DNA of 64,000 nucleotides from Prochilodus magdalenae. Taxonomy: Eukaryota > Chordata > Actinopteri > Characiformes > Prochilodontidae. The stretch covers positions 223,501 to 287,500 of the forward strand of contig JAMWET010000041.1 in NCBI GenBank assembly GCA_024036415.1. The letters are read 5' to 3'. The notes under the pieces are model-generated. The model saw only the letters and a list, made by a program, of their open reading frames with translations, was not told the DNA's origin and made no database searches. The stretch's first letter is position 1. The number at the start of each line of letters is the position of its first letter. Below are positions 3,076 through 58,769 of this stretch, piece after piece. The position numbers and the translations under genes are program-made.

Positions 3076-3584
3076 TGAAATTTAATTGCTCTGTTGTTGG
3101 TTTTCTTTTGACTTTACCTCAGAATTTTGTGTAAGTCAGTTAAACTGAGTCAGTTTGCTTATAAACCAGCCAATCAGAGCAGAGCAACAAATTCATGATC
3201 TCACCAAAAAATGGAAAGCAGCTTGTTTTATTTCAGGACCAGATAACAGGGTGTACATGGCCATGTAAAACCTCATCTTGGGCGCTTTCACCCTGTCCAA
3301 AGTCACATTAAATAGATATCAGGATATGCCAGATTTAAGTGTGTGGGCATTCTTATGGCACTTACACTGAGAACAATGAATTGGCCAATGCAGAGCTCAG
3401 ATCTTAACATCCCTGAATTACCTGGATGGTGAGAAGCAGAAAATTCAACCAACTGCTATTACTGAACTCTGGAGGCGTGGAAAAATCCCCTGCAGAAGAT
3501 AGCAAGTCTTCTGTAAGGCTATTATAAAGCTAAGAGGTGGACACACTAAAGTGATCTGACCTCCCTCTCCTCCATTCCCAAATC

Positions 3585-3720
3585 CGTTTCTTTTGGTCCA
3601 CTCATTATGAAGTTTACACAAAGTGTCAAAGATAACAGCCATTTTCAAATTAGGTCCAAAACTGAAAAAAATGGAGATACAAAGTTTTGTTTTCCGATAG
3701 CATTGAAATACTGATATCAT
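3585..3720 (-). repeat. Fragment of non-autonomous DNA element (family M)
   Basis: Contains TTGGTCCACTCATTATGAAG and AAAATGGAGATAC, matching in inverted orientation the elements at 26705-26945 and 30085-30290. Strongly diverged; ends not resolved. Confidence 0.45.
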
Positions 3721-4392
3721 ATATTTGGTTGTCGGATGTCATTTTGTTTGTTTCCTGCAAAAATGTGTACCTAATACTTAATGGTAAGAACTGATGTAAA
3801 TGTAGGCTGTTCTGACCAAGCATTAGGAACACCATAAATGATACATGGAAACAAATGCAAATAATGCATGCTCTTTAATAAACAGTAACAACTAGTTAAA
3901 AAAGACCTTGTGACAATTGAGAAGACAAATTGCACCTATACATACTCAGTCCTCACTGGCATAACATCTGCTTACAGGAAATAATTTACAATTACAACAA
4001 TGCTTTGCACAATTATGCGCATAGTGTCGACATAACGAAGTGGAACAGGTATTGCAAAAGCAGAACAGACAAAAAAAATGAGATGTCACTGTCAGACAGC
4101 CCTCTACATCAAGCAATAACTTAATAATGATAAATAAGAATATAAAAATAGGCTTAAAAGAACATCCAGTGCTCTTCACAAAAAATGGCACCCATGGAAA
4201 ACATGAGCCAAACAGACAAAACAGCAAAAGTAACACTGTAAAAACGATCTATATTGCTTATACTTTTGATTCTTCTTCAAAATATTTGTAAATTATGCAA
4301 ATGTAGTTATTTGATGTGTAATAACCAAAAGAAAATACCTAAATTGTATCAAACCTTTTATAAGATTCAATAAAGCTTTTTTTTTTTTAGGG

Positions 4393-4398
4393 TTTATT
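4393..4398 (-). terminator. Polyadenylation signal AATAAA
   Basis: AATAAA on the minus strand about 145 nt beyond the TAA stop (4542-4540) of the zinc-finger/piggyBac fusion gene. Confidence 0.5.
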
Positions 4399-4539
4399 TA
4401 AATACATTTATATTTTTGTTAATATTTTGAATGAATGATCAAAAGGATGAGCAATAAAGAATTATATTTACATCCTGTTTGTTCAAGTTTACCAGGGGTA
4501 CCAATCTGGGAAGAGCACTGTCATCACAGTTAATAAACT

Positions 4540-5805
4540 TTATGCAGCTCCTTGGCTGTGAAACTTCAGGAAGCAGTTGTGATTGCGTGAAATGCAAAGG
4601 AACACACAACATTTAAGACATCGCACTCGAGACGTTCGCTCGCAACCTCCAAATCTACACCTGGCTTCTTCACCTTCGGCAAGCTGCTCTGGCCAGTGGC
4701 CCAAACCATCATACCGCGTGGCTGCATCAGGCAAAGGAGTCTCAAAGTCAGTAGAAGGGCCTGTGCTCGTATTTGACCTTGGCCGTTCTGGAGCTGGGGG
4801 ATACGGGGCTGAGGATTCTTGAGCATCTGTATTGCTGGGGTGGATTAAAGCTTTGGAAACTTCCAGCCGGAAAGCCATGAGTGACAGTAGCTCTGGAACA
4901 AAATTCCGATCTTGTTTGTACTGTAGCCAGGAGTTAACCAAAGCCAGATCGATAAGGTCCCAAAGTACAGACAGCGGCCAGGCACCGGGTGATGGACTTA
5001 TGCATGGTGTGCGGTATAGGCTTCTCAAGTCTCTGTTTAGGTTTGCTGCCTTGATGGCCCGCTCAAAGCCACTGACGAGGGAGGTCGAGCGTGACTTTTC
5101 CTTTGTGACCGCAGACAGAATGAAGCCATGATGGCATCGGAACAACTTCAGCTTCCCATCACGTGTCATAAACTCATCGCCAACTTGCCCCCTCGCACCA
5201 CCAACCTTGCCAGCACTGCGCACTCCTGCCTCTAGGAGATGCTCCAACATAGATGGGGTTGACAGCTCTGGTTTGCAGAGGAAGATCATCCCTTGATTAT
5301 TACCCTTTTCCCGAGAAACCATTTTCTCAACCACTTCCTCTCTATTAAAGTCATTTATACGCAAGTTGAAGTCCATGACCAAGCCACCGACACTTATCAT
5401 GACCGTGTGATGTAGTGAGTGTGTCGGGTGCCTCTGAAACGGAAGGGGGTACTGGTCAACTCCATGGTTCCCGTGTCTTTTAAGCGCTTGGCACCCTTCA
5501 CGAACTCGGTTCACTATTGTCTGAACCTTCCATAGAGGCTCTGTCTTTGATACTGAAAGGTCTGTGCAGTTCTGTGCATTCTGTGCATTAGACTTTTCAC
5601 CTGGCAGATGCGTTTCAACACTAGTACCCCTCTGATTTGTGCCGTTTTGGCCACTTTGTTCATGACCGCTGACATCTCTGGGCTCTTCGGTTGGACCAGA
5701 CAACCTCAGTTTATGGACGAGTTCAGAGAACCTGGAAGCCGGCATGGCATCGGCAATCAGCGGCACTCGAGTGCAGTCCTCCCAGTACAGCTTCATACTC
5801 GGAAA
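4540..5805 (-). CDS. Last exon of the fusion gene: piggyBac-derived catalytic-fold region and C-terminal Cys-rich finger
   Basis: The exon enters in phase 0 after CTCTAAG and reads FPSMKLYWEDC, continuing the piggyBac N-domain of the previous exon (which ends GIHIAMGTLK). Then come a block like RFSELVHKLRL, a polar Gln/Asn-rich linker, the RNase-H-like part with VDQYPLPF, a LEHLLEAGVRSAGKV block (normally preceded by DNYFTS, here CKPELST), LRSLYRT and DLALVNSWLQYK blocks, a Pro/Ser-rich spacer, and a terminal CRFGGC...VRCLKCCVFLC...HNCFLKFH finger matching the family's C-terminal cysteine-rich domain. The stop is TAA at 4542-4540. The transposase part has no frameshift. Confidence 0.75.
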   Translation of the reverse strand, partial: FPSMKLYWEDCTRVPLIADAMPASRFSELVHKLRLSGPTEEPRDVSGHEQSGQNGTNQRGTSVETHLPGEKSNAQNAQNCTDLSVSKTEPLWKVQTIVNRVREGCQALKRHGNHGVDQYPLPFQRHPTHSLHHTVMISVGGLVMDFNLRINDFNREEVVEKMVSREKGNNQGMIFLCKPELSTPSMLEHLLEAGVRSAGKVGGARGQVGDEFMTRDGKLKLFRCHHGFILSAVTKEKSRSTSLVSGFERAIKAANLNRDLRSLYRTPCISPSPGAWPLSVLWDLIDLALVNSWLQYKQDRNFVPELLSLMAFRLEVSKALIHPSNTDAQESSAPYPPAPERPRSNTSTGPSTDFETPLPDAATRYDGLGHWPEQLAEGEEARCRFGGCERTSRVRCLKCCVFLCISRNHNCFLKFHSQGAA

Positions 5806-8800
5806 CTTAGAGGAATAAAAGAGAAGAATCTGCTAAGTATGTAGACTCAGACAACAATATTCATTTCATAACAATAAGAATTAGGGACGCACAATATGGG
5901 TAAACTACTATTGTGAGGGCGACATGCCTTATAATAAACATACGCATTTTTTTTTGATTGTGTAAACACTTGGGTTTAAAATAACTGGGCAGGATGCTCA
6001 TAACACACTAAACCATTCAGTGATTGGTCGGAAACCTAATATTAAGAAGGCTGATATCACAGTAATGATCAGAATACAATATATCATAAAGTCTAAATGT
6101 TCCACCATATGACATGTCTGGAACTATTCAGAAATTGCATGGTAACCGTAGTACTGTTCCTCTACATTGATCTTATACACTAAATTAATATTGTATCATT
6201 TCAATCCCATCATCATACATGTTATATTTGAAATATGTCAGAACTGGGACTACATTTCAATCAAGGCATAATGTAATAGATGACTGGGTGACTTTCACTG
6301 GCTTATTGGACATTTCAACAAATATATAATCAAAGGCTGTATGTTTCCACACTGACACACTACCACACTGACACACTACCACGCTGACGTCAGGATGGCT
6401 GATACACCAGCCAGGACTCCCTTTTGTACATTAGGGCAGTGTTACTCTTCTTATCCTATGGGAATACTGCCAACTCTATTTAGAACTAATGGAATATTTC
6501 TGCTTTTTATTAGGAATGCTGTGGATGCGCAGAAAAGAAAATTCATGAGTATCAACTCCGGACAGTACAGGTTAAAATGTGTATAGCCAGAATGTGTATG
6601 TTAACTATATTTTATGATGCAGAATGTAAGTATGTATGTCAGATGTTTTACACTTAAACAAGTATTGCTAATTATAGTTGTTATAGTAGAATTTAAATTG
6701 AACTGTGTACAGTAGATTATTTCATTACATCATATTGTTTGATATATGTTTGTATTTTATTTATCCAAAGACTGCTATTGCTGCTATGCAGTAAATTAAC
6801 TTGGGCATCCTGCGTGGTTATATTTGTCAATTTGGGTGACAGTTTTTAACACTGGCTGTGGTTCAGGTCAGGTCGAGCTTGTGCAGATACAAAATTAGAC
6901 CTGACTACAGCAATAATTTACATTTATTTACATTTACGGTATTTAGCTGACGCTCTTATCCAGAGCGACTTACAAGGTTAATCATATTACAGGTAGGTCA
7001 ATGTGGTGTTAGGAGTCTTGCCCAAGGACTCTTATCGGTGTAGCACAGCATAGTCAACTAGACTGGGATTCGAACCCCAGTCTCCCACGTGTGGTGTTGG
7101 CTCTGGGGTGGGTAGTGGTCTTATCCGCTGAGCTACACCAACCAATAATCAGAACCCCTGGCCATTGAGTTCATTTATAAACCTAATGGTATGGAGTCGG
7201 ACCATAAATGCCTGTTGGGCAGTTAGTTTTCGTTGCTGATTATAAGAAAGATTAAGTCATTAAAGTCATTACTCACCTTCAGAGTGCCCATTGCAATGTG
7301 GATTCCTACAAACTGAGCCACCTCTTTATAGGTAACAGGCTCTGGCAGTTTTGACACCTGCTCTGTGCATGCAGCAATTTCTTTCCATGTATTCCAGGTA
7401 AAATACTGAACGAAGTAGTCTATGGGCTTCCAACTGTCTTTTCTGCCTTGCTCTTCGTGTTCATCTTGAGAACAATCTCGGTTTCTAAAACAGAAGAAAA
7501 GAGAAGAGAGGAAACAGATTAAGTAGATAACAATTTTCAAAACAATTCCTAAAACTAGCAAGTAAACGTTACCACATCAAACATACCTGGACAATTCATG
7601 TTGTTGTACTGCTCTGTTGGTGCGAATTCCATAGTAGCAGGACATAATATGAGTTTCGGCTTCTGGCTCCGACTGAAAGTTATCAGTATCCTCCGTGTCT
7701 GAACTCTGGGAGAGGAATTCCAGAAAGCCCTGGGCGCCCTGTTGCTCTGCACCATCACCTGCAAGAGTTGAATATTCCCCCAGGGCTAAGTAAATGTAAG
7801 CTTTGCTTAAAAGAAAGCTTTTACCACAGTGTGCTTAGCTGCTGTGACTTACCCTCTTCAGCGCTGGAGTATAAAGTATGATGCATTTCCATTTGAGTGC
7901 ATCCCGCGCTGACTTCCTCACACTCGTCTAATCCAGATGCAGCCCCTGTTGCATGGGAGAAAAGAGCAAATATTGATGAACCGTGATGAACAGTGCTACA
8001 CATTTTCCTCAAACTGAAAATTTAAAAACATACATGATCCTGATTTTCCGGTCCTTTCCTCTGGCCCTCCTTGCTCGTTAAGGCTCGGCTCCACAAATAT
8101 CTCTCCCTCCTCCTCTTTAACAGGGTAGAAAATGCATTGCTTGCCAGCAGACACTACAGAGGAGCCAGAGGGAATACCATCTGTGGCAAAGTTCAGAAAA
8201 AGAGTTAGTTTAATAGCCGTCAATTCAAAATCAACATGATGCTACCAAGCTGCGAGGGTGAGGGTCGCACGAAACACCATCGCATCTTTCCTAATTGCTT
8301 CACAACGAGTGCTCAGCATGATTAGAGCAGAACACTAACTGACAACGTCCCACATTGGCTAACCTCATGCTAAGAAAGGAAATGGGAATAGGAGGGCCAT
8401 CTTGCCCATCCAATTAGACAATCTTGGACCAACGCTTTGAAGACTGCACCACTCCATGACCTCCTGTCTTCAAAGGTTGTTCAAGATTGCTAGTCACATC
8501 AGGACCTCGTTTTTAGTAAGTATGTTTGCTTGTCTATCTCTACTCATTGCCTATGTTTCCATGCATCCGCCAATCCAAGATTTTTACCAATCCAACTGAA
8601 TTCATTAGGATAATAGATTAAGGTGTTTAGATGCTAGTCCACTCAACAATCGGATGAAAATCTCTGTTAACATGCACACTTCATGTACATAAAGCCCAAA
8701 TTTTGTCCCACTTAATATAGATGTTACCATGAAAATAGTTTGGCTTTTAGCTTTCTAAAACATTTACATTTAGGGCATTTAGCTGACGCTCTTATCCAGA

Positions 8801-11800
8801 GCGACTTACAAGGTTAATCATATTACAGGTAGGCCAATGTAGTGTTAAGAGTCTTTGCCCAAGGACTCTTATTGGTGTAGCACAGCACAGTCACTGAGTC
8901 CGGGACTCGAACCCACGTCTCCCACATGTAGTGATAGCTCCCTGGCAGATAGTGGTGTTATCCGCTACACCAACCGCTGATTGGACTATTCAATATGCCC
9001 TATAGCCGGTGTGAACACACTGTCCTTTATTTGCTCTTATACATTTTTGATGCTTGTTTTTGCCAGTTTTATGGACATCCTCTCCTCTGCGGATCTGCTT
9101 TCGGCTATCACCATGAACGTTATAAACTTCTGCTATGATGCAAAGACACAGAACACACTTAAACTGTCAGGCTATCAAGGTAATCAGATACAGGCATTTT
9201 TCAGTTTAACAAATGATTTAAAGGATTACGCACCCAAATGGATAGAAATATGGACATATTCTGCTTGAGCTATTTTAGATTATCTACAGATTATCAAGCT
9301 TTATGTATGTAAATGTGGCTACTAATGGCAATCAGGTGAATGACAAGTCATGACTACAATTCATGTATATTTTAAAATATATACGTTCTGGGTTGTGGGG
9401 GAGCTGGAGCCTTTTCTAAGGTTTAATTGACGGAAGGCAGGCACACGCACAAACACACCCACTCTCTAACAAACACACACACACCCACTCACACACTCCT
9501 AGGCGGCAACTTAGCATCTCCAAATCACCTCACAGCATGTGGTTGGGCTATGGGAGTAAGCCCACAGAGACACTGAGTGAGCCGGGAATCAAAACCAGGC
9601 CCTTCTTGCCGTGAGGCGACAGCACTACCCACTGCGCCACAGCGCCCCCTGCTGTACTACTTTAAATCCCAATACAAACAGGAATAAGTCTACATAGGCT
9701 TGACAGACTTACCTAGGCATGTGGTGAGGGGAGTCTGTATATTCTGGTTTCCCTGTAGAACGTGGGTTTCGTGGTCCTCGGCTTTTACCAGAAACACCTG
9801 GACACCCTGCATTAAATCTCTCTCACTAGGGTGGACATTCTGAGACGCTGGGATCGAAGCACTGGTTTCCGTCTTTACGTCAGCAGAAGTGCGAGTAGAG
9901 GTTAGTCCTGGTTGCAGGCTGACCTTCAATGCAAATGAAATGATTTTATTTAATAATAAGAATAAAATCAAAAAAAGATTCTTATCACATTAACAAAGAC
10001 AAATTACATTTAGAGGCCTCTACATAAAGCATGTGATTTATTCAGATATTAATTCACATATACAACTGTATCTCATCAGATGACAGAAATTTAACATTAT
10101 TTAATTTTTCCAGTTACTTTTATAGGTGGCATGCAACCACTCAACCAATTATTGTTGGTTGTGTGTAGTTTATACTCCAAAGCATCTCAAACAGGGTTAT
10201 GAACGATATGTACTCACAACTGGTGGGTTTTATCGGTAGTGGCTGAAAATTATTGATGGTTTGGGTTTGTAGCTTTCAAAGTATTCAAAAGCAGTATAAT
10301 GACAGAGCCAAAGCCGAAGGCCTTAACACAGTGACCGTGCGATGTATTCAGATGACGTTAACATAATTACAAGCTTGTGTTTATCTGGTAGTATCGTTCA
10401 CACTATTTCTCAAATAAAAAAATTGCAATATTATTTTTTCCAACCTCGATTTCGGGTTTGGTTTCTACAGTTTCACCACCAACATGAACTTACTGACCAA
10501 TCGCGCTGGCCTCTGCTGTTCTCACGATGGCTGTGTACCAAGCACTAACAACTTTTTCACAAACGTAGGTTAGATCCGAACCTCCAAAGGCACCTCAGAC
10601 TGGGCTCCAAATATCTGATTTAAATACTGAGGCACCCAAATTTATTTTAAGAGTCTTTCAAGCGATGAACTTTTGTAGCAGCCCAGTGTGGCTGTTTGCC
10701 CAATTCTCTGGCTTGCTCAAGGGGGGCTTGGACCCGGTTTTTCCCCACCCCCACCCTCAAATGTCTGTACATTAACTTTGTGGGGTTTTTTTGTTTTTTT
10801 TTTCTTATATATAACAAACTGATTTTCTGTGAAGCTGCTTTGAGACAACGTTGGTTGTAAAAAGCGCTATACAAATAAACATTGATTGATTGATTGAAGT
10901 AGGCAGATTTTAAAGATCCTGACACAATTCCAGTTTGAGGTGGTAAAACAGTATGCATGGTTATGGTATGGGGCAAAAATAATTTTCAGATCTCTGTTTC
11001 ATTTGCCTCATATTGACTGTGCGAAGGCCTCGCTGTCCATTGACTTATATATCAAGAAGCTTCCCTTCCACATCCACAGGATACTCACCTGTCTTGTCAT
11101 CTTGCCCTGAGGTGTCGGGAAATTTTCCAGGACCACTCCTGATGAAGTGCCCTTCTTGACTTGTTGCCCAGACTTTTGAGCCAGTGGTTGGTCTGCTTTC
11201 ACCACCCCTACAACCGCGGCGGAAACAGGCTGTAACTCGAAGACTACTGGATCTTCAGGGGACTCCTCCAAGGTTGATTTCCCGTGAGCTGTAGTGGCAC
11301 CCCTGTCTTCCCTTTCTTTATTTTTGTCCTCACAGTTATCTGTGAGCGAGTAGAGCTGGAAGACGACCTGGCACTCTTCTTTATCGGCCTCTGGCTCTTT
11401 CGCACCTTGGTTTTCAGCAGCGCTTCTTTTTCCAAGCTGTCTCTTTCCGCTACCTTTGCCACCTCGTCCTTTCCTACTTCTCGTCATGGATGTTTTGGCT
11501 TGGTTCTCTACTCTCTGAACGAGGATCTCCTCTTCCTCCTGCTTTATTTCGGATTGCTCTGGAAGGTGGGAATTTTGAGATGTTGGGGCCATGGTTTCCA
11601 TAGAAACCTCTTTCTGAGATGGTGTACCGCTGTGGTCTAATTCGCTGTGGGTTGATTCATCTTCCTGATGATCGGAGGCTTCTTGGGAATCATTAACCTG
11701 AGTGGGGGCATGGTCATCTGCTTCACCCTGATCCTCAACCATGACTAAATTCACATCTGAAGGCAGCTCCTCTTTAATGTCCATGCTTTCCTGAGGTTCG

Positions 11801-14800
11801 GAAGCTGAGCTTGGCAGAACTGACCGCACGTCTGTGTTTTCTGCTTCTGCGGGCTTCTTGCCGTTTGTTTGATAGTGGCATGTGCTGGGCTCTGTGGATG
11901 ACACCTGAGCAAAAGCCTGACCAATTTCAGTGGAACCTTTACCAGGCATCTCAAGATGGCCAGCATGAGTACCTTGATCAGTTTTGCCCTCGCCTTCAAC
12001 AGAAGTTGATGTCATTGGTAAAGATGGGGAAGAACTGAGAGCTGGGAATGACAGTCTGTGTATATCTCTGTCTCCCAGACCAATCTCTCTCATCTCAGGA
12101 TCCACATCCCAGTCTGTAGACACCTGTATTTCAAAGTTGCTTGAGTGAACTGAATCTGCAAGTATCACTTCACCTGATGTTGGGCTCATGGCTGGACTGT
12201 TAGAAACATCATAGGTGACGTTAGAGTGCAGGAGTCCACTTTCAGAGTGCAGACAAGCCATGTGCTCCTGCAAAGCAGACACCTCTGAGAACATCGTACC
12301 ACAATCATGGCATCCGATCGCAAGCCGGGAAAACGGAGGGCTCAGCGCAATTTCCTGGTCGATTTTTGTAGGGGCTTTGCGCTTGCGTGGGACTTTCGGC
12401 TTTGTGTGCGGAGGAGCAGGACTGAGATTAGAGTCCTTCTGGAAATTTGATGAATCCTTCTGATCCTCTTTTGACTCCTTTCTCATCGTTTTTGTCTTCT
12501 TCTTCTTTTGGCTTGTTGTTTTCAGTGCCTTTTTTTTGTGAGCACCTCCCTTCGCCTTTACCACTGTAGTCACTTTTTCCTGAACTTCCTTGGTTTGACA
12601 CTTAGCTTTTAGTGGCTGCTCTAATCCCGTAGTCTTGGCATCCAGTTTGTGCACTTTCAGCTGTGGCTGCTTGTGACCTTTCAACAAGAGCAAGGCTTGT
12701 TGCTTTATCTGATCCTGACTGGAGGCTTGAGAAGCACCTTTTTGCTCCTTCTCCCCTTGCTTTGCTAACTTGTGGATCTCTGAGCCTTTTTTAACCTTGG
12801 CTTTCTTCGGAGACACCGATTCTGCTGTCTTGCTTAGTTTTTTTTTCTTCGGCAAAGGCTTTCCGTCTTGCTGTGTCTCCTGAGACTTTCGTTTCTTGGC
12901 CAAACCTTTCTGTTTTTCAAGTTTTTTCTTCGGAGTTTTCCCGCGTGGTTTTTGTTCAGGCGTGTTTGTTACTTTCGGACTACTGGGTACATTAAGGACC
13001 TTAATGTCCGCTGACGAATTTTCAGTCGTCTTGGCTTTTTTATGTTTCTGATTTTTCTGTTTTAACTGAGGCACTGTTTCAATCTGTGCCGAAACTGGCA
13101 CATCAGTATCTTGTTTACCTTTCAATGGGCTAGTTTTTGACACCTGTAGCACCTTCTGCTTTGGAGATTTTTCCTTGTTTTCTCCAAAGCGTACAAGCTT
13201 CTTGCCCTTTGCCTTCTCTCCTTTCTTTGCTACGGACTTTGATGGAGTGTTGCCCTTCTGGGCAGGTGTTATCTGTGAAGAGCTTTTTGCAACTTTACCC
13301 TGAGCTTTCAGGGGCTTTAACTTTTCAGTCACTTGCTTTTTAGATCTTTTCTTCTTAATAGGTAAAATCTTCTTAACGTGGAGGCCACCTTTAGCATTTG
13401 GCGGATTCTGTTCTTTTGTTACCACTGTGCTTGGCTGTGTGACAGACTCACTGCTATGTTGCTGTCCCACATGGGAGATTTCTTGGTCATTATTGAGTGA
13501 AGGTGGATTCGGTGACTTGGGCTGCTCTGGGAATGGAATTTCCTTTTCAGACGTTTCTGGCTGTCCATCAGGCTTTTGGCCATCATCATAGGTAACAATA
13601 TTCTCCTGACCGCTCTGTGGCTCTGCTTCTACTAACAAGTTTGCTTGGTCAAGTCTTTGCTCCAGAGACTCTTCGTGGGTGATGGTTTCCTCGGCGGACA
13701 TGATGTCTGTTGGCACTGAAAGGTCCTCTGGAACTGACTCAGACTGTCTCCTTTCAAAGTCATTTGTGGAAGTCGGAGATGAGGCCTCCCCTGTCTCTGC
13801 CTGTCTCTCTGTGTTGACATCTGAAGCAACTTGGACACCCTGTTCTTCTATTGTTTCGCTTTGTTCATGACCCACCTCCAATGGAGGGGTTGAAACTGAC
13901 TTTTCAGCCAGTTCTGGCACAAGTTCAAGTTGAACCTCATTTAACTGTGCTGCTGCCATATCTGATTCAACAGCTGTCACCTGTTCCTCTACATTCACTG
14001 AAGAAACCAAACTTGTCTCTTCCTGGACTACAGTTTCCTCTTGTTCAACAGCCATCTCCATCTCTAATGACTCTTTGCAAGTGGTTTGCTCGGTTCCATT
14101 TGCCGTTGTCCCTTCACACAACGGCGGGTCCCCTGTCTCCTGAACTACAACTGGTTGAACCGTTGGCTCTGTAAAATTGAAGTGCAATGGCTGTATGAAG
14201 CGCGGGGGCTGTTGCGTTCCCGTGGTTTGTGTCTGAAAAGGTACCTGGTCAAGCCCGAGTATTACCAGCTGATTCACTTTCTGGACATTTCCCAATTTCT
14301 CTATTAGTCTTTTGATGTGTTCAGCTCCAAGAGGGCTTATTTGCTGTGGTGCCGGTCCAATGGCTTCCATGCGTAGTACTGGAGGTTGGACTCCTGTAGG
14401 TTGAATTGCAGATGGATTTCCATTTAAGTCTTGTGTTGCTATAGCGCTACTGGACAGAGTAGTGGTTTGACACTGGGAGTGCTTAATCTTAATGTGATGA
14501 AGCTGTGATTTGGCTGTCTTGAAGGATTCTTCACATTGTGAGCATGCAAATTTCTTTGTGGATGGACCTGCAAAAGTCAAAAATGGTTTGTATGAAAGCC
14601 TTGGTAATTCAACCTCTTGTACAACCTCAAAACATTCTCATTAGTGCTGCATGCATGGGACATAAAGGAACCAAATTATAGATCTGGAGTTTGCCTTGTC
14701 CACTATACAATAAAAACCCAATAAGACAGCTGAAACATGACATGAATTCAATGTAGCGTTTTTATTGCTGGGAAAAATCATGACCTGTTTTTACCTGAGC

Positions 14801-15746
14801 TTTACATTTAACTAAGTTGTCGTATAGCTTTTGTGTTTCATTAGCATAATTCTAAAAACAATTATTGACACACCTCTCAGCCAATAAGGAACATCTTAAG
14901 GACTACTTCCATTGACTGACCTAAACAAGGGTGTGTGGTTGACATGACAGTGTCACAAGTGTCATTAGTGTCACTAATAGACTACTCTTGCCCTAGCCAC
15001 AGTGAGCTTTCATGTTAGACATTAATTAACATAGAGTTAATAGGAGTCTACTACATGCTATTATGTATGCACAAGCAACTTCATTAAAACCAAGCAGTTA
15101 ACAACGGGTTGGAGGAACACTTTAGCCAACCCTGCTTATTCTACTTGCTAACCTAAAACAGAATTAGCTGTAAAGCAAACAGGGGCACACTCCTGCTCAC
15201 TTTTAAAAAAGGATTTGATCAAGATTTTAGCATCTCTATCATCAGTCAGAGGAGCTCATTCAGTGGCAGACTGCTGTCCCAGTCCTGCTCCACTGACAGA
15301 CTCAGGAAGTCTTTTGTCCATCAGGCCATAAGACTGTTCAACTCCTCTCAGTTCAGCAAATGGAAAACTCTGTGACACTCTTCATTCCGGTCACTCCAAT
15401 GGACACACCCCCATGTCTGCAAACACTCCCTCCTAAATGCCCAATATCTATTTATATTTATATTGTATTGTCCTACTCCGTTCTGTACTACTGTTTACAT
15501 ATCCTGCACTGCTAAATTATTTATATTACTGATAACAGCTATCTTCTCAATTTGCTTAGCAAATGGTTTACCACTACCTCCATTTATACTTTACACAGAC
15601 ACTGTGGACTCTATTTTTATACTTTCATACTTTATATTGTATCTCTGTCTCTATCTGTACAACTCTATCTTGCTTCTGTTGTTACCTCTGTATAGTTTGT
15701 ATATCTGCTACTGGATGCCTTGAATTTCCCTCTGGGATCAACAAAG

Positions 15747-15785
<39 letters not shown>

Positions 15786-18700
15786 GTTATCTTATCATGC
15801 CAACTCTTGGGCAAGTCATATAGTCTTACATGCTCACTCTTGATGGGTGCCCATGGTATTTATTATTATACCAGAAAACGTCTATTCAGACTACAGTAAG
15901 GTGATGGTCTCTGCTATCCATATTTTCGTCTTTCAGTCACCAAATGCAAATGGATAATGCAAACGTCATCCAGCCAACTAATTAATAACCGGGTTTGTTG
16001 TTCGTTTTTTTATTAGTAACCTACAACAATGAATGTTGATTCGTTGATTCAATGTTGATTCATTGTTGTAGCGATAGCTGTACTGTTACAGAAGATACTA
16101 AGGCTACAAAGAATGCTTTGACCTACACTTGATTATAAACTGAAGGGAAAAAAAAAAACTGTATTCCAGGAAACAGGTAACTGATTTTCTGTGGTTAGAA
16201 ACCTGTTATACAGTTGGAGAACAAAAGTAAATAAATAAAATAAAATAAATATTATATATATATATAATAAAAAGTAATTATTATACTAGTGCAGAAACAA
16301 GTATATGTATGAATGTATTCTATTATGGTAATACTACTATGTAATACTGAATACATAGTAATAGTATGCCCTAATGCTATTTATGTCAAAGATACAGTAA
16401 AGGTAAGCAGTCAAATATCTAAGTATCAGGAGAAGCAAGCTATGCTTGCATGCTTTAATATGAAATATTTTCACACATCACATATTATTTCTTTGTGTTT
16501 ATCAAGGCTTATTCAATAATGCAAAATCAGAAAATGATTCTGGGTTAATATAGTATATAATTTTAATGCATTGGTGGGAAAAAGCTTAAAGCACGACTTC
16601 ACTTTTTAATTTTTATTACGCTGTACTGCATATACCCAGAACATTACAGCAAAGCGATGATATCTGTCTACTTGATAAAAAAAAACAACAACAACTGTTC
16701 AACCACTACTAAACCTGCGAGTGTGGCTAACCTCAAAACCATTCCAAACTGAAACCATTTAACCACTGAACAAACAGTCCCATCACAGAGCAGTGTTTTG
16801 GTGCAGTCCATTTTAGAGGCAGCTGCCTAAAGTTTTCTATTTAAGGCACCCTACTAAAATTACTACCTAAGGTTTTCTAAGATAGGTTTTCATAAATACA
16901 GTAGGTTCAAGGGCTGAGCCCTGAGGGACACCCTCAGTAAAGGGAACAAAAGAGGATTTGTGGTCCTAGATTGAGATGAACAGCTGTCTGTTACAAAAAC
17001 TTTATTTTCCCCCTCCAAAAAACATTCAGCATCCATTATCTTAAGCTTTACTCCAATGACTGTTTGATATCAGCTGTTATAATAAGTGTAATAGCCATTA
17101 TATACAACACACAGAGACACGTAAGGCTTACCCCTATTCCTTTTTTTCTTTGTGCTGGCTGTGCCTTTCTTTGGATCTCCTGTGCCCTCGGTATCTCCTT
17201 TCTCATGTGCCTCCAAGTGTTTCTGAAGAGCCTTGGGCATGCTGAACCTCTTGCCACACTCTTTGTGAATGCAAACATACGGCCTTTCCCCGGTGTGAAT
17301 GCGCTGGTGGTATTTGAGCAAGGTGAGGGTTTTGCAGGGTTTGCCACAGTCTGAACAAGTGTATCCATGCTCGCCGAAGTGGACTTTCTTGTGGTTTGTG
17401 AGCTCGGACGATCGGCTGAAGGCTTCTCCACAGATGGGGCATTTGAAAGGCTGCTTTTCTGTGTGTGTACGTTGATGAGCCATGAGCTCAGTTGAGCAGG
17501 TGAAGTGTCGGTCGCAGACATAGCAAGCGAAGAGGGCATCTCCAAGCATGCACTGCTCATACTCGGTAGGGTGGTTCATTTTGAGGTGCCGCTCCTTGCT
17601 TTTGTTGTCACTGAAGATGATGTGGCACTCCAGGCATTGTAGCGACAGCTGAGAAGCTGTAAGTGGATTAGAAACCGGAATAGTTCATTAGAACAGTACA
17701 AGACATTTTTTAATCATTGCAATAAGACAAAATATACAAGGTGAATTCTAATAAATGTGATTGTAATAGTTTCATTAGGATTCCACCAATCATGAAATTA
17801 AAACTGACAATTAATTTCTATCTAAATAATTGTGATAATTGTCCAAATATGTTGATTGTATGCAACTATAAACCTAAAGTGGCCCAACTGGAAACTTACC
17901 TATCTTGCTTTTTAGTTACTGACACCTAAAAGTATTGGTATCAGGAAGGGGAAAATCTGGTATCCGTGCATCCCTATTGGATATGATACAGAATTGTGCC
18001 AAGAAAAGGTTGAAAAACTGCCTTTTTCAGTTTATCAATAAGTTCAGTATTTGAAATACTGCTTGAAAGCTATTTTATAGCACCCTGATCCACTGATGTA
18101 GTCACAAGCTAATGTAAGCTAACCTAAAAAATACAAGCCAATATGCTAGTCACAATGCACCAATATGATATGATGCAATATAATACAATTATTTCTTCAA
18201 TGTTGAAACCACAAACTTCTTTTTCTTCTGACCTTCCATGAAGTGTATGGAATATTTAAATTGTGATATTAAGATGATAGCCAAGCAACTGATTACACTT
18301 GAAAGTCAGTATTAACATGTACAAACAGAAGTGATGGAAACTTACAGGTCAGAGGAATCACAGTGGGCTTGGACATGTCCATTTTTAATGGATCCATTCT
18401 GTCCTTCTTTGGAGGAATGCTTTTCCTGGCACCCTTATCCTTTTTGGAGCATTCCTCATCTCTGGGAGTCAGACAGTTCAATGTTGAGCCTTCAGGAAAT
18501 CCGTTTTCACATGTTGCCTCTTTATCCACGGCACTTGAATCCAAAAGGGTATTTGCATCTGAGGCTTCACTGGGGTCTGTGTGGACTATAGACTCACTAG
18601 GGGGCTCTGTGGCATTGGAGTCTAATGCTGAATTGGTGGCTGCTATTATTTCATTGGGCATACTTGGGTCACATGAGGCATCAGAGAGAGATAACTGAAC

Positions 18701-18964
18701 CTCAGAGTCTTTGGGGTCACCACTGCCAGCTGTCTCCTCCTCAATTGCCATGGTAAGTGCACTTTCTTCCAGCGTCACTTCCGCTGGTGATATTGGTTCA
18801 ATTATTGCTTGAGAATAGATGGGTAAACTCAGTCTCGGGCCTTCAAAGCCAGTTATATCTTTGACAACTAATTCTCCTTCTGGAGAAGCTTCAGAATTTA
18901 AACCTGAAGCCATATCTCCTTTAGAAAGAAACAGGTCACTGACTGATTGTTCAGCAACTTCCAT
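4540..18964 (-). CDS. C2H2 zinc-finger/piggyBac transposase-derived fusion protein (2,239 aa, 9 coding exons)
   Basis: Exons on the minus strand: 18964-18346, 17656-17132, 14567-11089, 9923-9713, 8180-8034, 7945-7853, 7758-7587, 7484-7277 and 5805-4540. Every junction is GT-AG, phases agree (1,1,0,1,1,1,2,0), and the sum is 6,720 nt, exactly 2,240 codons with stop. Order: acidic N-terminus (1-206); five C2H2 fingers (about 215-370); another finger at about 386-410; a long Lys/Glu/Gln-rich region; a finger at about 1125-1150; short acidic exons; piggyBac-like domain (about 1765-2239). Expected to be nuclear and DNA- or chromatin-binding. By-eye alignment keeps the first catalytic Asp (in a VDQ block), while the second reads Cys and the third Asn, so transposition is unlikely. 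Five in-frame exons upstream of the transposase part argue for exaptation, not a recent insertion. Gene name not recognised. Confidence 0.8.
5820..7270 (-). other. Intron 8 of the fusion gene
   Basis: AT-rich intron splitting the piggyBac-derived domain. It contains a SINE (about 6920-7143) and no further exon that I can see. An intron inside the transposase segment indicates either old domestication or an intron gained after capture. Confidence 0.6.
6920..7143 (-). mobile_element. tRNA-derived SINE (full length)
   Basis: On the minus strand: a TTGGTGTAGCTCAGCGGATA-type A box, a B box GGTTCGAATCC-like block (7065-7080), a CTGTGCTACACC body, and a tail AAGTCGCTCTGGATAAGAGC followed by GTCAGCTAAATACCGTAAATG, which is the LINE-derived tail of fish SINEs. 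The head is degenerate as a tRNA. Sister copies are at 8763-8976, 23111-23325, 25756-25965, 35524-35728 and 41735-41942. Confidence 0.8.
7277..7484 (-). CDS. Exon 8 of the fusion gene: piggyBac N-terminal domain
   Basis: Encodes 69 residues entering in phase 2 and leaving in phase 0. It carries the family signature WKPIDYF...YFTWNTW...IAACTEQ and KEVAQFVGIHIAMGTLK, which in piggyBac-type transposases precedes the LP(S)xxxYW block that here opens the next exon. The match to the family is clear by eye and the frame is intact. Confidence 0.75.
7587..8180 (-). CDS. Exons 5-7 of the fusion gene (short acidic linker exons)
   Basis: Three small exons (8180-8034, 7945-7853, 7758-7587) with GT-AG borders and phases 1, 1 and 2. 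They encode a Glu/Ser/Gln-rich linker with no known domain, ending with MSCYYGIRTNRAVQQHELSR just before the piggyBac exon. Acidic Ser-Asp stretches such as SSDTEDTDNF resemble casein-kinase-type sites. Confidence 0.65.
8763..8976 (-). mobile_element. tRNA-derived SINE
   Basis: Same family as 6920-7143, antisense to the window and with the same body and GGATAAGAGCGTCAGCTAAA tail. B-box region reads GTTCGAGTCCC on the minus strand. Confidence 0.75.
9385..9650. repeat. Dispersed SINE-like repeat (GGCGACAGCACTACCCACTG family)
   Basis: Begins near GTGGGGGAGCTGGAGCC, contains a CA-rich block, then GAGCCGGGAATCAAAACCAGG and a terminal block ending GCGCCACAGCGCCCC. Degraded relatives are at 21915-21998 and 46050-46280. 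Confidence 0.6.
9713..9923 (-). CDS. Exon 4 of the fusion gene
   Basis: Enters in phase 0 after TTGAAG and leaves in phase 1 at CTAG|GTAAGT. Encodes about 70 residues starting VSLQPGLTSTRT and containing VQVFLVKAEDHE; polar, no recognised domain. Confidence 0.65.
9930..11080 (-). other. Intron 3 of the fusion gene
   Basis: Contains a plus-strand retroposon tail at 10685-10900. Nothing else identifiable. Confidence 0.55.
10685..10900 (+). mobile_element. Retroposon 3' tail with (ATTG)n end
   Basis: Sequence runs from CTGGCTTGCTCAAGGGGGGC through GCTGCTTTGAGACAACG and AAAAAGCGCTATACAAATAA to a short (GATT)n tail at 10882-10896, the usual look of a fish LINE/SINE 3' end. A relative is at about 47260-47440. 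Confidence 0.6.
11089..14567 (-). CDS. Exon 3 of the fusion gene: 1,159-codon Lys-rich exon with two C2H2 fingers
   Basis: Enters in phase 1 after CTTTTGCAG (G|GTCCATCC) and leaves in phase 0 at ACACAG... CAG|GTGAGT. It begins GPSTKKFACSQCEESF, a complete C2H2 finger, then a Glu/Val/Gln-rich acidic part, then several hundred residues packed with Lys clusters (such as KKKRSKK and KKKKTK) and short Pro/Ser motifs, then a second finger CHDCGTMF...ALQEHMACLH, then another acidic stretch. The basic region suggests nuclear/nucleolar targeting or nucleic-acid contact (inference). No stop or frameshift. Confidence 0.8.
14580..17125 (-). other. Intron 2 of the fusion gene
   Basis: About 2.5 kb. Contains a LINE 3' fragment with TCTA tail (15225-15785), an AT-rich stretch with a (TA)n run near 16250-16270, and no additional exon recognised. 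Confidence 0.6.
15225..15785 (+). mobile_element. LINE 3'-end fragment ending in (TCTA)n
   Basis: Plus-strand text with CAGACTGCTGTCCCAGTCCT and TTTGTCCATCAGGCCATAAG, followed by a pyrimidine-rich 3'UTR and GGGATCAACAAAGTATC leading directly into about ten TCTA repeats (15749-15785). This is the known 3' structure of fish non-LTR elements, whose terminal tetranucleotide seeds the microsatellite. 5' truncated; coding part broken. Confidence 0.65.
17132..17656 (-). CDS. Exon 2 of the fusion gene: five C2H2 zinc fingers
   Basis: Enters in phase 1 after CTTACAG (T|CT TCT CAG) and leaves in phase 1 at AGGG|GTAAGC. Fingers in order begin CLECHIIF, CYVCDRHF, CPICGEAF, CSDCGKPC and CIHKECGKRF (the last with a four-residue Cys spacing). 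Fingers 4 and 5 are joined by a canonical HTGERPY linker. The Lys run KKKRNRG at the end may form a nuclear localisation signal. Confidence 0.85.
17670..18340 (-). other. Intron 1 (between coding exons 1 and 2) of the fusion gene
   Basis: AT-rich; nothing identifiable apart from splice signals at its ends. Confidence 0.6.
18346..18964 (-). CDS. Exon 1 (first coding) of the fusion gene
   Basis: ATG at 18964; MEVAEQSVSDLFLSK opens 206 acidic, Ser/Glu/Asp-rich residues with no known domain, leaving in phase 1 at ACCT|GTAAGT. The start is the first ATG after a 5'UTR acceptor (GTTTTAG at 19025-19020). Same intron phase before the first finger as in the gene at 155-1193. Confidence 0.75.
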
Positions 18965-20055
18965 GTTCCTTAGCTCCCGATTGAACCAATAAAGGAGACC
19001 TTAGAAGAATGCAAAGGGCCTAAAACACACACAACAAAGAATTAGAATTTGATGGCTTAGAGAGGGCTAAAACCAGACTTCAATATTTGATTTACTGTGT
19101 TATGCAGTATTCTATATGCCAGTGTTGTATGTCTCAGCGTCATTGATTGGACATAATACATTTTTAATAGATTACTTTCATCTATCAATATTTTCTCATC
19201 ATCATATCCAGCATGCAGTACACAAATCCATCAGGATTCCTTGTGGTGCCAACTAATTCTAATGGCTACCTTGGGTACTAAAATATTGGCTAATACACAC
19301 AACCAAGTTAGCATTAGTGTTACTCTTAAGTCAGTCACTGAACAAAACTGAAAACTAAAAAGGTAAACAGCGATTCTGCCCTAGTGTAGCCTAAATCCGA
19401 ATCTGAAGACGTTTACCAACAGTCAGCCAAACTACAGCCAACCTCCCAAAAATCTATCGCAAAGTAACTGTATATTGTACGCCTGTTAAGTCTGATGTAA
19501 TAGCCATTACCGGGTCCAAAGGCTCATTCAGAACCCAAAATCAAACAGTGTCAGAACTTCAGGTATACCTTTCTTTGGGAAAGGATTAAAAGGTGTGTTA
19601 GTTGAGGCTGAATAGCCCAGAGCCCAAAACTCTGCTAAATCATCAGTCTACAACCTTTCATTGTGATGTGTGAGAATATGAAACGGCTGTGGTTGGTAAG
19701 ATAGAATTCCTAAACAAATGGGAATACACAGAGTTGAGCTGACCAAGCTAATGGTAACTGACAAAAGCTAAATTAGCCCTAACTGAAGTAGGCTGCAGGT
19801 TTTATAGTGAGTTACTTGATATTAACCCACATCTTCATGTTTTGGTATTAAGTCGTAAGTTAGCCTAAGCAAGCTGTCTTCGCCTTATCAACAAGCCACA
19901 AAGACATGGCTTCATTCCGGCTGTATCATGGGTGTCTGCAAAGGGTCAATTGGATGCTAACGTTAGCCGGGTTACCTAAATTAGCTTAGGTCCATTTCAA
20001 TAACGAGCGCCTTGAGGTAAAGACGAGGACCCGGATGTGGAGGTCAGTACTCACG
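18965..20055 (-). other. 5'UTR exons and leader intron of the fusion gene
   Basis: A 55-nt leader segment (19019-18965) precedes the start codon. A donor GAC|GTGAGT lies with exon edge at 20055, so a noncoding first exon probably occupies part of 20055-20850. The intron between shows no coding exon. Confidence 0.5.
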
Positions 20056-20853
20056 TCTCAACAAGGGGACAGTTCTTCCCAGCTTGGAGATGCCTCATCA
20101 CAAGGGGGGCTTTCCTGATCTTTAAACCAGGGAATCTCACTCTGGAGGGCTACTGAGGCACTGATGCGATATGTATGTTTATATCAGATGTAATGGTGGG
20201 TACGTTTCTCAGTTTGGCCAGAAAGCCCTTCAAATCCTGAACAAGAGAGATCCACTCGGACGAACTGAGTTCAAACCGACTGAGTTTCACTGTCAGTGAA
20301 TACATTAAAAATGGTAAACAGTCAAAATAATACAGTGAGCTCGCTAGCTACACTATACTACAGCGAGGAAACTGGAAAACGCTGCAGTGGTGGATACATA
20401 GCGTTTACATCGTACAGCCTTTTGGAATACTGCTGATCAGTGATCAGCAAATGAGTCGTTCAGATGTAACTGTATGCACGGGGGCTATGCAGGAACGGCT
20501 ACAGCTTAGCTTGCTTGTTTGTTTTCAGGGATTATAATGACCGGCCGCAGCACAATTATTATGACCACAGTCTTGATAGTGAAACCACCTCTACTCACAG
20601 ACTCGCCCACTACACTAGCCAGACCCCTGTTCTCCTCCTCTGTTAGCCCATTGTTGCCTTAGCAGGTCAGTCTCGCCCAACGCGCAGATACATACGGCTA
20701 CGCTAATGCTATCCGGTATATTCACCACAGCCACCGTAACGCGTTCAGAACCGCAAGCGCAGCGGTATGTGCAGGTATTTCGCCTACCTGTTTTGTTTCA
20801 GCCATGCATTGCTCATTGCTAGTAGTACAAAACCATCACTAAACCAGCGTGGG

Positions 20854-20861
20854 TGACGTCA
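20854..20861. promoter_or_regulatory. Full CRE palindrome TGACGTCA
   Basis: Exact 8-bp CREB/ATF site in a CpG-bearing segment upstream of the fusion gene, 20 bp from an ACTACA inverted repeat. Likely part of its promoter. Confidence 0.6.
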
Positions 20862-20880
20862 CGAGCAGCCAGCGCGGTGG

Positions 20881-20913
20881 AAGGACTACAGTTCTGTGGG
20901 AATTGTAGTCCTT
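20881..20913. promoter_or_regulatory. ACTACAATTCCC-type promoter element, inverted repeat
   Basis: Two 10-bp arms AAGGACTACA and TGTAGTCCTT face each other across 13 nt; the minus strand reads ACTACAATTCCCACAG, the well-known ACTACAnnTCCC vertebrate promoter motif bound by ZNF143-type factors. Together with the CRE this marks a strong TATA-less promoter for the minus-strand gene. Confidence 0.6.
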
Positions 20914-21124
20914 CACGGATCGCTTCCGTATGCTCGGTCCATGTTCTCGCTAATATTCATCAAAAAATAAAAGGAAATTCCGTCGTCAAATTGTGTACAT
21001 CATTAACCCCTAGACATTTAAATAAAGCATGTCGGAATGGTTTCTTGTGAAATGGTTCGTTGCTGAGAAACGTAGCGACCAGTTCCTTTACAATAATGGT
21101 GGCTGTCGGGTCTTTATGAAAGCC

Positions 21125-21703
21125 TATTCTTTGGATTTGCTAAGTCATTACTTTGAGAGGCTTTCTCACTGTTTTAAGGTGCTATCTTATTATTTCGAGG
21201 TGTTGTATCAGTATTTTGAGAGGCTAAGTCTTTATTCTGAAATGCCAAATTATTTGTAAATGCTAAGGCATTAAACATTAGGATGTTATCATATTATTTT
21301 CAGATTGTAAGACATTAATTTACAATGTTATCATAATGTTTTGAGACGTTAGACATTATTTTGAGGAGTAATCTCGTTTTTTAAGTGGTATCTTATAATA
21401 TTAATGCTAACGTATTATTGTTATACATGTTTTATCAGTATTTTAAGATGCTATCATTAATTTGAGGAATGATCTCATTATTTTGATATCCTTTCCCTTT
21501 ACTTTGAGAAAAGATATTATTGTGAAGTGTATTTTGAGATGTTATCTTATTATTTTGATTTGCTAAGTCATTATTTTGAGGTGGTATCATCTCCTATTAT
21601 TTTATTGCTATCTTATTATTTTGAAATTAAACACATTTTAGTGTGCTATTTTATTATTTTGAGTTATCTCATTATCACAAGTTATTACATGCTAAGTTAT
21701 TAC

Positions 21704-21776
<73 letters not shown>

Positions 21777-21880
21777 AGTCATTATGTTGAGATGTTATGT
21801 TATTATTTTGAGTTGCTAACTTGTTATTTTGAGATGTGAGGGCATTTGAGGTGGTAAGCTAAGTTATTAATTTAAGATCT
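21125..21880. repeat. AT-rich degenerate tandem repeat (TTATTTTGAG...) with internal (TCTA)n
   Basis: Dozens of short imperfect repeats alternating TTATTTTGAG with short spacers such as ATGCTATC or TGCTAAGTCA, interrupted at 21704-21776 by about eighteen TCTA units. Plus-strand frames through it are only repeat translations. Confidence 0.8.
21704..21776. repeat. (TCTA)n microsatellite
   Basis: About eighteen perfect TCTA units. Confidence 0.95.
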
Positions 21881-22639
21881 CACTCTATCTCACTTGGTTA
21901 TCTTCTAAACCATTGCAGGGCAGACACACAGACATACACATTCACACAGCGCTATGAAGCAACAGTGCTACCCACCACACCACTGTGCCGCCCCAGTTTA
22001 TAGTATTTTTTATTCCGTTCCCCTTGTTTTATGTATTTTGTACCATTATTTTGATATAATTTCTAGTTCTTGGGAGATTCTTAATGCTTTTGGAATGTAA
22101 AAATTGTGATTGTGCTGTGAATGAGCTTTCATGGTTTTGGTGTATCCAGCCATTTCATTTGCTATCAGGCTTTGAATGTCACAGCACCACTGTGAACTGA
22201 TATGGTTATTTTATAGCATTGGCTTTTTTATATGCTCAGGTGGTTACAGCATTAATCAACTGTCAATACCCATTTTCTTTTTTTCAGATATGTTTGGAAT
22301 AAGCCCCACCATGGTGAACCATTTAATAATTTACTCTGCTAATCTGATAACTAGAATATGCTGATAAGACAACATGGGCTGTACTTTTTATGTTCAGACA
22401 GGCAACCATCTGCTTTTATCCCATGCTGCTTTTGCATCTGCAGTTATTGATGTAGAGTCTGGTAGGAAAAAATCTCTATTACTTTATAACTCATAAACAG
22501 CTCAGTGAAATATGATTATACAAGTAGAAGGTAAGTGTTGCCTCTGTTGGAAGACCACATAGATGGCATATTGTCAAGATATTTTGGGGTAGAAATTAGA
22601 ATTAGGTGTCATCACACAACCTCAACTGTCCATTTTTTA

Positions 22640-43089: not shown

Positions 43090-44690
43090 CCTCGCTGTCC
43101 CCTGTACACCAACACACAATTTACAGTGCACTAACACATTACACTTACTTAGGTACTGTACACCAACAAACTACTTACAGTACACTAACACATTACACTT
43201 ACTGAGTTACTGCACACCAACACACTACTTACAGTACACTAACACATTACATTTACTGAGTTACTGTACACCATCACACTACTTACAGTACACTAACACA
43301 TTACACTTACTGAGTTACTGCACACTAACACATTACTACTAACACATTACACTTACTGAGTTACACACACTACTTACAGTGCACTTACACTTACTGAGTT
43401 ACTGCACACCAACACACTACTTACAATACAGTGACACTTACACTTACTGATTACTGTACACCAACACTGAGTTACTGTACATTAACGCATCACACTTACT
43501 GAGTCACTGTACAACACATTACTTACAGTACACTACGTATTAGACTTACTTACACTTACTGCACAGTTACTACACTTACAGAGTTACTGTACACCAACAC
43601 ACTACTTACAGTACACTAACACATTACAATTACATAGTTACCGTAAACCAACACACTACTTACAGTACACTAACACATTACACTTACTGAGTTACTGTAC
43701 CCCAACACTACTTACAGTGCACTAACACATTACACTTACTGAGTTACTGTACACCAACACATTACTTACAGTACACTACGTATTAGACTTACTGAGTCAC
43801 TGTACACCAACACACTACTTACAGCACACTAACGCACTACACTTACAGAGTTACTGTACACCAACACACAACACAGTACACTTACATTACAATTACATAG
43901 TTACACTAAACCAACACATTACACTTACTAACATATTACACTGTACTGAGTTACTGTACACCCACAGTACTTACAGTACACTAACACATTACACTTACTG
44001 AGTTACTGTACACCAACACACTACTTACAGTACAACACTTACTACTTACAGTACACCAAACACACTTACAGTACACTAACACTGACTTACTGTTACAGTA
44101 CACCAACACACTACTTACAGTACACTAACACATTACACTTACTGAGTTACTGTACACCAGCACACTACTTACAGTACACTAACACATTACACTTACTGAG
44201 TTACTGTACACCAACACACTACTTACACTAACACATTACACTTACATAGTTACCGTACACCAACACACTACTTACAGTACACTAACACATTACACTTACT
44301 GAGTTACTGTACCCCAACACTACTTACAGTACACTAACATATTACACTTGCTGAGTTACTGTACACCAGCACACTACTTACAGTACACTAACACATTACA
44401 CTTACTGAGTTATTGTACACCAGCACACTACTTACAGTAAACTAACACATTACACTTACTGAGTTACTGTACACCAACACACTACTTACAGTACACTAAC
44501 ACATTACACTTACTGAGTTACTGTACACCAACACACTACTTACAGTACACTAACACATTACACTTACTGAGTTACTGTACACCAACACGCTACTTACAGT
44601 AAACTAACACATTACACTTACTGAGTTACTGTACACCAACACACTAGCACACTAACACATAAAAACATAATTGAGTTACTGTACACCACT
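43090..44690. repeat. 54-bp minisatellite array (1.6 kb)
   Basis: Unit built of CACCAACACACTACTTACAG, TACACTAACACATTACACTT and ACTGAGTTACTGTA. Roughly 25-30 full or partial copies; the right half (44100-44640) is more homogeneous. It separates the two tandem trypsin units. Confidence 0.95.
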
Positions 44691-48785: not shown

Positions 48786-48797
48786 ATATATGTACAT

Positions 48798-48828
<31 letters not shown>

Positions 48829-49905
48829 AACATACACAAACATATACACATACACAAACATATACACACATACATATACACACACACACAAACATATACA
48901 CACATACATATACACACACACACAAACATACACAAACATATACACATACACAAACATATACACACATACATATACACACACACACAAACATATACACACA
49001 TACATATACACACACACACAAACATACACAAACATATACACATACACAAACACATACACAAACACAAACATACACAAACATATACACACATACATATACA
49101 CATACACAAACATATACACACATACACAAACACATACACATACATATACACATACATATACACACAAACACAAACACACAGACATACACAAACACATACA
49201 CAAACATATACACATACATATACACACATACACAAACACATACACATACACAAACACATAAACATACACAAACATATACACACATACACAAACACATACA
49301 CAAACACATACATATACACACATACACAAACATATACACATACATATACACACATACACAAACACAGACATACACAAACACATACACACATACATATACA
49401 CACGTACACATACATACACACATACACAAACACATACATATACACACATACACAAACACATACATATACACATAGACATACACAAACACATACACATACA
49501 CAAACATATACACACATACACACATATACACACATACATAAACATATAGACATACATATACACACAAACACATACATATACACCCATACACATACACAAA
49601 CACATACACATACACAAACATATACACATACACAAACACAGACATATACAAACACATACACAAACATATATACACACACGCACACATACATACACACATA
49701 CACAAACACATACATATACACACATACACACACACACATACATATACACATACATATACACACATACACAAACACAAACATATACATATACACATAGACA
49801 TACACAAACACATACACATACACAAACATATACACACATATACACACATACATAAACATATACACATACACACATACACATACACACAAATACATAAACA
49901 TACAT
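48786..49905. repeat. 1.1-kb (CA/TA)-rich satellite-like tract
   Basis: Alternating purine-pyrimidine repeat built of ACACATACACAAACATAT-type units in intron 1 of trypsin copy 3. It is open in several frames on both strands only because the repeat contains few stops. Absent from unit A. Confidence 0.95.
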
Positions 49906-58760: not shown

Positions 58761-58769
58761 CTGGAGAAA

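Follow-up and report, generated by a model that had tools for sequence, protein, structure and literature searches.

Analysis of a 64,000-nucleotide stretch of Prochilodus magdalenae DNA, referred to below as the window, points to a host gene that formed when a piggyBac transposase was joined to the C-terminal end of a C2H2 zinc-finger gene, an event older than the divergence of the living teleosts. Its product would be a nuclear regulator that does not cut DNA, and we give this reading as a whole a probability of about 0.8. The fusion belongs among the host-transposase fusion genes such as CSB-PGBD3, being old and widespread in teleosts, and does not form a separate class.

The gene occupies the minus strand from 18964 to 4540. 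Rebuilding it from its junctions gave nine exons with consistent phases and eight introns, all of the GT-AG type and 7,705 b in total; the joined frame consists of 2,239 residues and a stop codon, i.e. 2,240 codons. The earlier note had proposed this chain, with the same start, end and length, and all of these were reproduced. Both expected domains exceed their Pfam cut-offs in the joined protein: C2H2 with E 9.3e-23, and DDE_Tnp_1_7 with E 1.8e-17 over two stretches (64.2 bits against a cut-off of 22.4). The transposase domain is split by one intron, its N-terminal part lying in exon 8 and most of it in exon 9. A pattern search identified seven C2H2 fingers, of which six lie near the N-terminus and the seventh at residue 1134. 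The linker is long and charged, and about 1,350 residues separate finger 6 from the transposase part. The parts of the gene are arranged as follows:

20551..20950, no strand: CpG-rich stretch (200-b windows with GC 0.50-0.54 and CpG o/e 0.89-1.15)
18346..18964, minus strand: exon 1, start codon and acidic N-terminal region, residues 1-206 (rebuilt splice chain)
17132..17656, minus strand: exon 2, C2H2 fingers 1-5 (Pfam and finger pattern)
11089..14567, minus strand: exon 3, finger 6, long linker with a Lys-rich part, lone finger 7
13314-12322, minus strand: Lys-rich part of the exon 3 linker
12247..12312, minus strand: C2H2 finger 7, residues 1134-1155 (finger pattern; conservation 0.60)
9713..9923, minus strand: exon 4, linker with two SUMO-type motifs
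8034..8180, minus strand: exon 5, linker with the SUMO-type motif VKEE
7853..7945, minus strand: exon 6, linker
7587..7758, minus strand: exon 7, linker and acidic run-up to the transposase part
7277..7484, minus strand: exon 8, N-terminal part of DDE_Tnp_1_7 (Pfam)
4540..5805, minus strand: exon 9, remaining piggyBac domain (RNase H-like core), cysteine-rich domain and stop codon (Pfam)

The CpG-rich stretch, located upstream of exon 1, is the likely promoter, a candidate placed on a map of coding exons alone. It emerged from a scan of 4001-22200 in 200-b windows (GC >=0.5, CpG o/e >=0.6), in which all other windows over the thresholds overlap coding exons. A UnaL2 LINE 3' element (Rfam RF00436) is present at 8769-8822 on the minus strand, inside an intron of the gene, and a closely similar sequence is found near 6930-7000. 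Elsewhere in the window, a second C2H2 frame of 514 aa with a long Ser/Asp-rich stretch (57244-58788, minus strand) resembles the fusion from finger to finger only. Long tandem arrays lie at 43102-44646 (54/108-b units) and 48794-49904 (6/62-b ACATAC-type units), and are the probable cause of the strong base skews there; a further array of about nine 44-b units is located at 528-937.

The same fusion was recognised in many other teleosts. With the whole protein as query (words from residues 1690-2239) 214 matches were obtained, the best 120 of which were listed, and with the American eel relative 202, again with the best 120 listed; together these searches gave at least 140 distinct long relatives of 1,323-2,719 aa. 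Among the matches listed, every relative with a species name is a teleost. Arowana and elephantfish represent Osteoglossomorpha and eels represent Elopomorpha, the rest being Clupeocephala; in each clade the taxonomy of a single species was consulted. Six or more C2H2 fingers within residues 1-450 are carried by 123 of the 140 listed relatives, and at least one finger by 139; many of those short of six look like truncated gene models. Such numbers indicate that the exon chain is not due to chance. The layout is not peculiar to this fish. In the transposase part, serrasalmids share 83-85% identity with the window and perch-like fishes about 50%. One goby entry, P0041 (Knipowitschia caucasica), combines C2H2 fingers and piggyBac ends without the RNase H-like core, reflecting either loss or a faulty gene model.

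Since the parts follow the same order in Osteoglossomorpha, Elopomorpha and Clupeocephala, the fusion would predate the living teleosts. Separate trees of the finger part and the transposase part (124 rows, clade labels assigned by the analyst) both recover Otophysi, Otocephala, Salmoniformes with Esociformes, and Acanthomorpha, as well as Elopomorpha (two rows) and Osteoglossomorpha (four rows); Clupeiformes are recovered in the transposase-part tree only. Pairwise distances in the two parts correlate at 0.81, the pairs being non-independent. The concordant trees and correlated distances fit a single fusion before the living teleosts split, followed by vertical descent. As to the claim that the transposase part has been kept under selection as protein, the unbroken frame put forward for it is no proof by itself; long retention at the protein level is supported instead by the conservation across teleosts.

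Membership of the piggyBac superfamily by descent is indicated by the domain score, the fold and the cysteine-rich zinc domain. The fold of homologue P0010 matches piggyBac 6x67 and piggyBat 9c0f. In the family alignment, the columns of P0042 residues C579, C584, C592, C595, C600, C607, H612 and H568 are kept in 139-141 of 141 sequences, while those of H566 and H609 are not kept in the family and hold His in just 2 and 1 of the 8 comparison proteins, respectively. The catalytic positions and the zinc domain are placed as follows:

5455..5457, minus strand: first catalytic Asp, residue 1935, kept (D in 137/141)
5272..5274, minus strand: second catalytic Asp position, Lys at residue 1996 (K in 139/141, R in 2/141)
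5041..5043, minus strand: third catalytic Asp position, Asn at residue 2073 (D in 0/141; residue read by hand off the alignment)
4543..4722, minus strand: C-terminal cysteine-rich (zinc) domain, residues 2180-2239 (139-141 of 141 sequences keep the Cys/His ligands)

The catalytic aspartates of the active piggyBac transposase are presumably D268, D346, D447 and D450. In the family alignment the first is present in 137 of 141 sequences, and the second, third and fourth in 0 of 141, whereas the same four columns hold Asp in 7, 6, 6 and 7 of the 8 comparison proteins. The alignment thus shows a piggyBac domain devoid of three of its four catalytic aspartates throughout the listed family. The window gene lacks the full set that would mark an active transposase, and cutting activity is unlikely.

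The behaviour of exon 9 in the Prochilodus genome (1.18 Gb) is that of a host gene. One full match was found, along with two partial ones (34% and 48% identity) in piggyBac-like frames on another contig, only the best candidates having been scored. A single full copy and a family across teleosts argue for a host gene rather than a repeated element. The stretch 3500-8300 contains 10 short inverted-repeat pairs, none of them convincing as a pair of ends around exons 8-9. The next-best exon 9 match in the genome (34% over part; G000:C7201:377971-382062) is an intact 619-aa piggyBac-type frame with four catalytic aspartates present, either an element or a second host gene. When the Pfam piggyBac model was run against all six frames of the genome, 55 stretches matched, some of them fragments of one element; the window's own exons are absent from these matches, perhaps because single exons score low (27.9 bits for exon 9).

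Conservation, taken as the fraction of 124 rows that share the residue of the window, is high in the fingers (0.67) and exon 2 (0.72), and low in the acidic N-terminus of exon 1 (0.23) and in exon 3 (mean 0.30). At their DNA-contact positions, fingers 1 and 4 are identical in 98-100% of the 124 rows, and an array with conserved contact residues, as in DNA-binding regulators, is predicted to bind DNA. The contact positions of the other fingers vary more, position 6 of finger 3 being identical in only 4%, and this variation counts against the regulator reading. In the linker, the following SUMO-type motifs, defined on the window's own sequence, were identified:

11767..11778, minus strand: IKEE, kept in 107/124
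11536..11547, minus strand: IKQE, kept in 118/124
9878-9867, minus strand: VKTE, exon 4, kept in 109/124
9788-9777, minus strand: VKAE, exon 4, kept in 111/124
8121-8110, minus strand: VKEE, exon 5, kept in 121/124

A sixth motif, VKAD at 1504, is kept in just 31 of 124 rows, and for the median linker lysine conservation is 31%. Exons 4-7 contain three motifs against 0.16 expected by shuffling, a number reached in 0 of 2000 shuffles; the three motifs of the exon 3 linker, by contrast, do not exceed the 3.46 expected by chance. The conserved Psi-K-x-E motifs point to a putative SUMO-modified regulator. Such motifs are short, and conserved islands of other purpose may look alike.

The regulator would act through three parts: the finger array would bind DNA, the transposase end would bind DNA or histone tails and may also dimerise, and the conserved SUMO-type lysines of the linker would recruit repressive partners. 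DNA cutting would be absent, and the mode of action would be that of other host-transposase fusion regulators. A more specific role would be that of a genome guard, in which the transposase end recognises piggyBac-type ends and silencing is brought about by the fingers together with the SUMO sites. The 55 piggyBac-domain stretches, with pieces of one element among them, speak for it, and a similar role was speculated for CSB-PGBD3 (PMC2268245). We hold this specialisation to be rather unlikely. More doubtful is a bivalent architectural protein, with the fingers at one fixed DNA site and the catalytically dead transposase end at another, on transposon-end-like DNA or histone tails, bridging host and transposon-derived sites; the ~1,350 SUMO-motif-bearing residues between its two ends are presumably flexible. 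If it were true, the gene would rank among the oldest C2H2-transposase fusions and would have been retained as the teleosts radiated.

The nine exons could also represent two adjacent genes, a zinc-finger gene and a piggyBac-derived one with its own promoter and start, fused by gene prediction. With the C-terminal 608 residues as query, a search confined to proteins of about 335-1064 aa gave 42 matches. Among them are 12 named genome entries, 456-1,016 aa long, of which 11 carry the transposase part without any C2H2 finger. The short entries favour two genes; they could reflect truncated models or a short product made separately. Against this stand five contigs of 7,073-7,422 b (source 'lgn', taken to be assembled public reads), with frames of 2,174-2,281 codons running from Met to the cysteine-rich end and seven fingers each. 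Just 243-594 b of each contig lie outside the frame, too short for introns that total 7,705 b in the window's gene, so the contigs look like cDNA and are the best support found for a transcript linking both parts. The predicted models of many species likewise agree on the fusion, and the finger-part and transposase-part trees agree with each other. The separate promoter for the transposase part named in the earlier note as grounds for refutation gave no sign ahead of exons 8-9 in the CpG scan: between 5806 and 20550, every window over the thresholds overlaps a coding exon. Two genes are highly improbable. The transposase part lies in one frame with host domains, as in host-transposase fusions. 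The fusion and domestication proposed at first gain support from the common part order across teleosts, the single full copy of exon 9 and the cDNA-like contigs.

Retained activity of the transposase part on DNA, for example nuclease or strand-transfer activity based on altered residues, is highly improbable: the fold and first aspartate are kept, and human PGBD5, described as lacking three of four catalytic aspartates (PMC3902484), is reported to induce DNA transposition (PMC4625184), but the second aspartate is K or R in 141/141 sequences and the third and fourth are never D.

In databases the listed orthologues are named 'uncharacterized' or 'zinc finger protein 576, tandem duplicate 1'. 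The latter name, with the symbol znf576.1 in fish annotation, is given to several listed orthologues and denotes this same gene, but is silent on the transposase part. Literature searches by this symbol and name found no paper with either. In a study of flatfish ovary, one transcript is entered as znf576, an identity called not conclusive there (PMC2751788). Among the papers listed in searches by name and topic, a set apart from the Cosby et al. 2021 survey, no description of the gene or of a fish piggyBac fusion was found. The suggestion that no C2H2/piggyBac fusion with this layout had been described may thus hold for the literature searched, although the gene itself is already in databases under placeholder names.

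Like the window gene, PGBD1 (SCAN/KRAB-piggyBac) and POGZ (C2H2-pogo) join transcription-factor-type domains to a transposase-derived part; PGBD1 differs in its N-terminal domains and POGZ in its transposase superfamily. Host-transposase fusions were surveyed systematically in tetrapods (Cosby et al. 2021, via the review PMC8290160), where a transposase domain is likewise in frame with host domains, probably through splicing, and kept as a host gene. Compared with these, the window gene is teleost, has a C2H2 array and a ~1,350-residue spacer, and its transposase is catalytically degenerate. In CSB-PGBD3, piggyBac transposase is also the C-terminal part of a chromatin protein, there as an alternative 3' terminal exon conserved in primates for >=43 million years (PMC2268245); in contrast, the window fusion occurs in three main teleost lineages and has two transposase exons. 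A large survey of fused transposon domains mentions CSB-PGBD3; a C2H2-piggyBac fusion is not mentioned in its available passages, and 'C2H2' is absent from its main text (PMC12062965). PGBD5 is similarly ancient, intron-containing and piggyBac-derived, with the same loss of three of four catalytic aspartates, whereas its transposase domain covers 7 exons against two in the window, and 'zinc finger' is absent from the text of the paper (PMC3902484). The window gene is set apart from PGBD5 by its exon layout and its fusion to fingers. With a similar catalytic loss, PGBD5 reportedly does not appear to bind either DNA or chromatin (PMC3902484), which counts against the regulator reading.

Occurring from arowana and eels to carps, salmons and perch-like fishes, the C2H2-piggyBac fusion is old, widespread and apparently unstudied. 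Its dead catalytic centre and untouched zinc domain would make it a clean case for the role of a captured transposase once cutting is lost, and teleosts include easily edited laboratory species.
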